64,000 nucleotides of DNA from Gammaproteobacteria bacterium (GTDB taxonomy: Bacteria; Pseudomonadota; Gammaproteobacteria; Eutrophobiales; Eutrophobiaceae): NCBI GenBank assembly GCA_003250975.1, contig QKIY01000026.1, forward strand, positions 1-64,000. Direction: 5' to 3'. The position numbers and the translations under genes are program-made. How positions within the stretch are numbered: the stretch's first letter is position 1; each line of letters starts with the position of its first letter. Below, piece by piece: positions 1 through 463 of the stretch. The notes under the pieces were generated by a model, which ran no database searches, was not told the DNA's origin, and saw only the letters and a list, made by a program, of their open reading frames with translations.

Positions 1-17
1 CAGGGTGCACTGCTCCT

Positions 18-93
18 GCGCATCCATGCGCCCGCAGTATTAGTACATCCCTGTACGTTACAGGATTGAACCTACTTCTCCGGTTCAAATCCC
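18..93. repeat. Hairpin chain containing tRNA T-arm fragments
   Basis: Three hairpins follow one another: GCGCAT-CC-ATGCGC (18-31), GTACA-TCCC-TGTAC (43-56), and a longer one in which ggattgaacc (63-72) faces ggttcaaatcc (82-92). The last is a tRNA T-arm sequence present in both orientations. The right part, reading ggttcaaatcccgg then ccatcca, looks like the 3' end of a plus-strand tRNA, but no D-arm or anticodon arm is visible, so I do not call a functional tRNA. The GTACATCCCTGTAC unit recurs exactly at 286-299. Confidence 0.6.
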
Positions 94-110
94 GGCCATC
101 CACTATCAAA

Positions 111-153: not shown

Positions 154-230
154 TGGTCGGGGTGACAGGATTTGAACCTACGACCCCCACGTCCCGAACG
201 TGGTGCTCTACCAGGCTGAGCTACACCCCG
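154..230 (-). tRNA. tRNA-Pro (anticodon CGG)
   Basis: On the minus strand the sequence folds as a standard 77-nt tRNA with encoded CCA: acceptor CGGGGTG, D-arm AGCTCAGCCTGGTAGAGC, anticodon stem CCACG/CGTGG with loop TTCGGGA (anticodon CGG), and T-loop GGTTCAAATCC. All arms pair, so it looks functional, unlike the related broken copy beside it at 269-411. Confidence 0.95.
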
Positions 231-268: not shown

Positions 269-411
269 GTGACAGGATTTACTCCGTACATCCCTGTACT
301 CCGCCCTTCGGGCTATCATGCTTCGCATGATATTCAATTTCGCTCCCGGCGAAATTGTGAACTCTACGACCCTTGCCTGCGGCAATGCTCCACCAGGCTG
401 AGCTACTATCG
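269..411 (-). pseudogene. tRNA-Pro-like pseudogene split by hairpins
   Basis: The flanks match the intact tRNA-Pro next door: gtgacaggattt (269-280) and then tgaactctacgaccc and ccaggctgagctac. The T-loop is interrupted by about 76 bp made of hairpins, and the anticodon stem-loop is replaced by TTGCC-TGC-GGCAA, a 3-nt loop that cannot hold a normal anticodon loop. The acceptor 5' strand is degenerate as well. It therefore cannot be a working tRNA. I infer a decayed duplicate of tRNA-Pro. Confidence 0.7.
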
Positions 412-463
412 AAAATGTGTTCCCGACATTTTCTACCTCCTGCGTCCCTGCAGTCGCCCCGAC
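286..463. repeat. Chain of eight short perfect hairpins
   Basis: Successive stem-loops are visible: GTACA-TCCC-TGTAC (286-299), GCCC-TTC-GGGC (303-313), TATCATGC-TTC-GCATGATA (314-332), CAATTTCGC-TCCCG-GCGAAATTG (335-357), TTGCC-TGC-GGCAA (373-385), GAAAATGT-GTTCCCG-ACATTTTC (411-433), CTGC-GTCCCT-GCAG (440-453) and GTCG-CCC-CGAC (453-463). Arms are perfect, 4-9 bp long, and the loops are rich in C and T, often TCCC or TTC. Stem sequences differ from one another, so this is not a simple tandem repeat; the shared property is the fold and the loop. No promoter or ORF is supported here. Confidence 0.75.

Follow-up and report, generated by a model that had tools for sequence, protein, structure and literature searches.

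A recurrent four-hairpin element of Gammaproteobacteria occupies the T-loop of a mosaic tRNA-Pro copy

The window that we analysed is a 64,000-nucleotide stretch (positions 1–64000 of contig C8) of a 2.3-Mb assembly (G000), and its left edge, G000:C8:1, is a contig end lying 268 bp from the array described here. Downstream of ispB the window carries an intact tRNA-Pro, and beside it a second copy that matches tRNA-Pro piece by piece from 463 to 269. This match bears out the initial annotation, which had described a duplicate split in its T-loop with a hairpin in place of its anticodon arm. Hairpins interrupt the copy at three places: the T-loop, the anticodon arm and the junction of the acceptor and D arms. 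The features are as follows.

154–230, minus strand: intact tRNA-Pro(CGG) downstream of ispB (called by ARAGORN; ispB–tRNA-Pro synteny in relatives)
269–463, minus strand: second, mosaic tRNA-Pro copy carrying hairpin inserts (piecewise tRNA-Pro match; fold z −3.5)
457–463, minus strand: acceptor 5′ strand of the copy, GTCGGGG
406–456, minus strand: 'B'-type insert at the acceptor/D junction, CTGC-AGGGAC-GCAG, AGGAGGTAG, AAAATGT-CGGGAAC-ACATTTT (assigned from loci L006, L008 and L007, which have this backbone with other stems)
386–405, minus strand: D-arm of the copy, TAGCTCAGCCTGGTGGAGCA (repeat D2)
373–385, minus strand: hairpin TTGCC-GCA-GGCAA replacing the anticodon arm
358–372, minus strand: variable region and 5′ side of the T-arm of the copy, GGGTCGTAGAGTTCA
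286–357, minus strand: T-loop insert, core of element A with four hairpins (76.4 bits under model R2)
335–357, minus strand: H1 of element A, CAATTTCGC-CGGGA-GCGAAATTG
314–332, minus strand: H2, TATCATGC-GAA-GCATGATA
303–313, minus strand: H3, GCCC-GAA-GGGC
286–299, minus strand: H4, GTAC-AGGGAT-GTAC (fits the CsrA consensus RUACARGGAUGU)
280–285, minus strand: 3′ tail of element A, GGAGTA (conserved among copies)
269–279, minus strand: 3′ side of the T-loop and T-stem of the copy, AATCCTGTCAC (tRNA-Pro positions 58–69, immediately after element A)
1–100, minus strand: second, similar but shorter remnant at the contig end, with an inverted T-arm, a T-arm and the GGA-loop hairpins GTACAGGGATGTAC and GCGCATGGATGCGC

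The array contains seven hairpins (286–299, 303–313, 314–332, 335–357, 373–385, 411–433 and 440–453), one fewer than the eight first counted, and all of their stems, 4–9 bp long, are perfect, as had been claimed. The loops are of TCCC/TTC type on the plus strand, again as annotated, and hence GGGA/GAA on the transcribed strand. With six non-overlapping perfect hairpins of stem ≥5, these are the 200 nt of highest hairpin density in the 64-kb window, most stretches of this size having 0–1, and none of 200 dinucleotide shuffles folds as well as the minus strand (z −3.5). Across the whole window, TCCCTG occurs 71 times versus 37 expected, an excess that the array alone does not explain. The array holds no transposase ORF and is not repeated elsewhere in the assembly, and on these grounds we rejected an ordinary decayed IS, in agreement with the initial annotation, which had suggested inserted hairpin elements. 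An assembly artefact at the contig end could also be ruled out, because the same element A is carried by complete genomes elsewhere.

The arrangement of ispB and tRNA-Pro is common across the family. Arrays lie at the same place in a second genome of the genus (G001) and in two related genera (G008 and G014), and in other genera ispB and tRNA-Pro stand plainly side by side. The relatives' arrays have different stems with the same linkers (GCATGGATGCAGGAGGTAGAG, CGGGAAC and GCCCGAAGGGCGGAGTAC), which indicates a fixed backbone on which the stems vary. One further locus (L002) comes from an assembly titled Bordetella parapertussis, and its ispB–tRNA-Pro region looks gammaproteobacterial; the title looks wrong.

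A 17-nt piece of this backbone used as a query recovered copies beside tRNA-Glu, tRNA-Gln and tRNA-Pro, and within a copy of tRNA-Ser. Their common unit, element A, is about 75 bp long and consists of H1 (loop CNGGA), a GAAC/GGAC linker, H2 and H3 (loops of GNA type) and H4 (loop ANGGAN). Among parsed copies, the H4 loop reads C-A(N)GGAN-G in 78 of 83, and the H1 loop contains GGA in 84 of 91. In 96% of copies position −1 is A, and in 92% position −2 is G or C, so that GA or CA usually precedes H1, at non-tRNA copies too. A search of Rfam returned no family matching element A.

The element is widespread. Model R1 found it in 35 of 53 species of the family, with up to 43 copies per genome. A flank-free model (R2), built from 34 rows, one with a single-base error judged negligible, detected the element in 156 of the 369 gammaproteobacterial species searched and in 121 of their 272 genera; this is more than 40% of the species sampled, E. 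coli among them. The per-genome counts from this class-wide search are lower bounds, no more than 14 candidates having been scored in each genome. Within E. coli it is present in 638 of 5426 genomes. Element A also lies at intergenic sites in complete genomes and inside larger repeats, namely a ~200-bp repeat in genome G297 and, in G173, a dispersed repeat of ~252 bp that has inverted ends of ~23 bp and whose six copies (L180–L185) are 92–96% identical. In G187, at least six copies stand head to tail with a 72-bp period after the end of a gene (L192, 1707–2132).

Comparison of 114 distinct aligned copies showed that the predicted stems are real. Double-sided changes occurred at all 22 of 22 pairs; double-changed cells numbered 527, against 139 ± 14 after shuffling, with 96.8% paired. 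This signal was lost when pairing partners were slid. Mismatches within stems were G·T far more often than A·C (90 versus 27), in the same direction in all four helices, although the alignments were model-fitted, which leans mildly towards G·T, and the copies are related by descent. A strand-blind process predicts equal numbers of the two, so the bias indicates that one strand folds. The structure is thus real and strand-specific, and the folded strand could be either RNA or single-stranded DNA.

Copies of tRNA genes are a strongly preferred, though not exclusive, site of element A. In a collection of 175 copies, which was seeded from tRNA-linked copies and is therefore biased toward tRNA, 62 have an intact tRNA no more than 250 bp away, and 52 of these 62 are on the tRNA strand. 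In 35 of the 175, spanning seven isotypes, the element is followed directly by the 3′ part of a tRNA from the T-loop onwards; in 12 of these 35 the matching 5′ part of the T-loop also stands directly before it. Four further copies have a D-loop junction, all in tRNA-Ser. Of the 30 best-scoring loci when the class was searched with the flank-free model, 12, our window among them, are next to an intact tRNA; by our estimate, tRNA density would lead one to expect about 1%. Usually the intact tRNA is kept and the element sits in a neighbouring full or partial copy; at L056 and L075 nearly full copies are broken exactly at the T-loop. At L084, L090, L068, L074 and L078, an inverted copy of the 5′ half of the T-arm lies upstream of the T-loop insert and makes a palindrome. 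The initial annotation had proposed a process aimed at tRNA genes and had named the same chain at sites without a tRNA as evidence against it. The element does occur at such sites, in ERIC, in YPAL-like repeats and at other intergenic positions, so the claim holds as a preference and fails as an exclusive rule.

Copies of element A a few hundred bases away from csrA were seen in no fewer than eight genomes (G016:C190, G012:C1:953153, G014:C62, G008:C34, G050:C127, G011:C73, G003:C137 and G047:C31). Where this could be checked, these copies were in a tRNA-Ser copy, and the loci that we inspected have a tRNA-Ser after csrA. We therefore rejected csrA as a special neighbour, since proximity to the tRNA accounts for the nearness; this probably reflects csrA–tRNA-Ser synteny, striking as it is given the CsrA-like loops.

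Filled and empty sites showed that element A behaves as a precise unit. In E. coli and Salmonella it lies inside ERIC at GGGGTGAGCGA^ or the equivalent position and adds ~78 bp, and the E. coli yeiS–preT region occurs as three alleles: ERIC with the element, ERIC alone and no ERIC. The copy inside ERIC at E. coli dxs–yajO (L221) is internally shortened, with ~12 bp gone around H3. In Pantoea agglomerans, near-identical copies occupy two loci, each within a YPAL-like hairpin loop. The empty sites, CCCGCGCC-AGGGAC-GGCGCGGG and CACGGGCC-ACGGAT-GGCCCGTG, are clean hairpins with a C-ANGGAN-G loop, and in filled strains the element follows directly after the GGA. Both P. vagans and P. alfalfae lack the element at the first site (the fumA locus), which implies a gain in P. 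agglomerans. At the second, P. vagans C9-1 is filled, so that loss is possible there; near-precise loss instead of gain can explain both this locus and the E. coli alleles. No target duplication was seen at the Pantoea or E. coli filled and empty sites, and filled and empty alleles differ by a further 1–2 bases at the right junction. In one comparison (L204, P. agglomerans CFBP8785, versus L202) the entire YPAL-like host hairpin is missing, and a 5-bp direct repeat, CACGG, is present at the filled site. Together, these observations show a unit with at least one gain, strand-specific folding and a junction that follows GA or CA.

The same observations bear on whether the hairpins could arise in place, through mutational template switching that perfects quasi-palindromes near tRNA genes, so that perfect hairpins are made and remade there. 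The perfect stems and the inverted T-arm copies upstream of several T-loop inserts are what such a process would leave, but it predicts neither the fixed loops, linkers and four-hairpin order found across 121 genera nor near-identical copies at different sites and ~77-bp filled and empty alleles. Being strand-blind, such repair would also yield as many A·C as G·T mismatches, against the 90:27 observed. We regard it as highly improbable. The related suggestion in the initial annotation, templated foldback of local sequence, is rejected because the same four-hairpin order, loops and linkers recur by homology in 156 of 369 species.

We therefore favour, with a probability of roughly 60%, the reading that element A is a non-autonomous insertion element of ~75 bp, made only of hairpins, which is dispersed in Gammaproteobacteria and moves as a folded strand, the T-loop insert in the window being one copy. 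It would move as a folded single strand and join 3′ of a GA or CA dinucleotide, often one exposed in a hairpin or tRNA loop, with no target duplication, using an enzyme presumably supplied in trans. Insertion into a loop spares the host stem and so could be repeated, building up nested hairpin chains such as the tRNA-Pro copy in the window. The stems would stay paired while their sequence drifts because the folded strand is recognized or under selection. The loop or dyad target fits the tRNA loops, both Pantoea sites and a few others. It does not extend to all 166 copies tested, of which 6 lie in a loop closed by ≥6 bp versus 4.3 expected, and we rejected loop insertion as a general rule.

We considered whether the moving enzyme might be a RAYT or IS200-type Y1 transposase, which would make element A a REP-like element. 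Its terminal hairpins, strand-specific folding and insertion without duplication resemble Y1 transposition. However, the foot of the hairpin has no GTAG/GTGG tag, GA or CA standing before H1 instead; no Y1 transposase occurs in genomes with 31 and 11 copies of the element; none of 12 Y1 genes has an adjacent copy; and a correlation of copy numbers disappears once genera g4 and g17 are removed. Mobilization by Y1/RAYT is thus not supported, and we consider it quite improbable.

The conserved GGA loops suggest a different role, in which element A and the related B hairpins would primarily be RNA: CsrA/RsmA-binding modules, or sponges, transcribed with tRNAs or genes and kept to sequester CsrA. 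The H4 and H1 loop counts given above are in keeping with this, as are the preference for G·T over A·C in stems and the placement of 52 of 62 tRNA-linked copies on the tRNA strand; moreover, GTACAGGGATGTAC in the window fits the SELEX consensus for CsrA, RUACARGGAUGU (PMC4347634). On the other hand, folding of single-stranded DNA also accounts for the G·T bias, and copies away from tRNAs show no clear orientation relative to flanking genes, as judged from crude ORF calls. CsrA itself occurs in 47 of 53 family genomes, but six g17 species have csrA and lack element A; being near-universal and kept in those species, its presence is uninformative, and we rejected it as a predictor of the element. 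From sequence, a primarily RNA role seems unlikely. A CsrA-binding function would nevertheless be compatible with mobility, and covariation together with the GGA loops makes a dispersed CsrA-binding RNA a separate, testable candidate idea. A broader proposal, that element A represents a new type of mobile element spread across the class, which would target structured single-stranded loops, move as a folded strand by a novel enzyme and build nested arrays that also serve as CsrA-binding RNA, we hold to be rather unlikely as a whole.

Element A, a single structured element present in two fifths of the sampled Gammaproteobacteria, connects ERIC inserts with YPAL-like repeats and with tRNA copies full of hairpins, and the filled and empty alleles of E. 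coli make the movement of small bacterial hairpin repeats testable in a laboratory species. Sharp in 1997, and Wilson and Sharp in 2006, reportedly described ~70-bp insertions at a specific internal site of ERIC. The copies of element A inside ERIC in E. coli and Salmonella, similar in size and at an internal site, are, we presume, almost certainly these insertions; here, however, the element is seen to be independent and covarying, present in 121 genera and mostly outside ERIC. ERIC (IRU, RU-1) itself is a 127-bp imperfect palindrome inserted at TA, whereas element A is ~75 bp with another structure.

Like YPAL (Yersinia palindromic sequences, RU-2), element A is a short intergenic hairpin element with filled and empty sites. 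YPAL elements are short intergenic hairpin MITEs with known filled and empty sites and targets that span or adjoin dyad symmetry (PMC2229807). They are ~167 bp long with target duplications of 3–26 bp; element A, in contrast, is ~75 bp with four hairpins and no target duplication seen. Its Pantoea host repeat, with GGA loops, resembles by eye an RU-2 sequence in PMC2759123. REP/BIME sequences with RAYT share dispersed hairpins and a single-strand logic, and G·T pairs have been noted in REP stems (PMC3733652), but element A has four linked hairpins, no GTAG/CGTC tag and no RAYT neighbour. Rickettsia palindromic elements are likewise inserted in structured RNA genes (tmRNA and M1 RNA; PMC2229807), although in another taxon and, as described there, as one long stem-loop. 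The several GGA loops of CsrA-binding type recall CsrB/RsmZ-type sRNAs, from which element A differs in being dispersed (up to 43 copies), insertion-polymorphic and without an Rfam match. As a dispersed, non-coding sequence with filled and empty sites it is akin to MITEs, but it has neither the terminal inverted repeats nor the target duplication of a parent IS; the 252-bp G173 repeat that contains it does have ~23-bp inverted ends. What appears to be new here is that the ERIC inserts are part of an element that stands on its own, has covarying stems, occurs across the class and is strongly linked to the tRNA T-loop.
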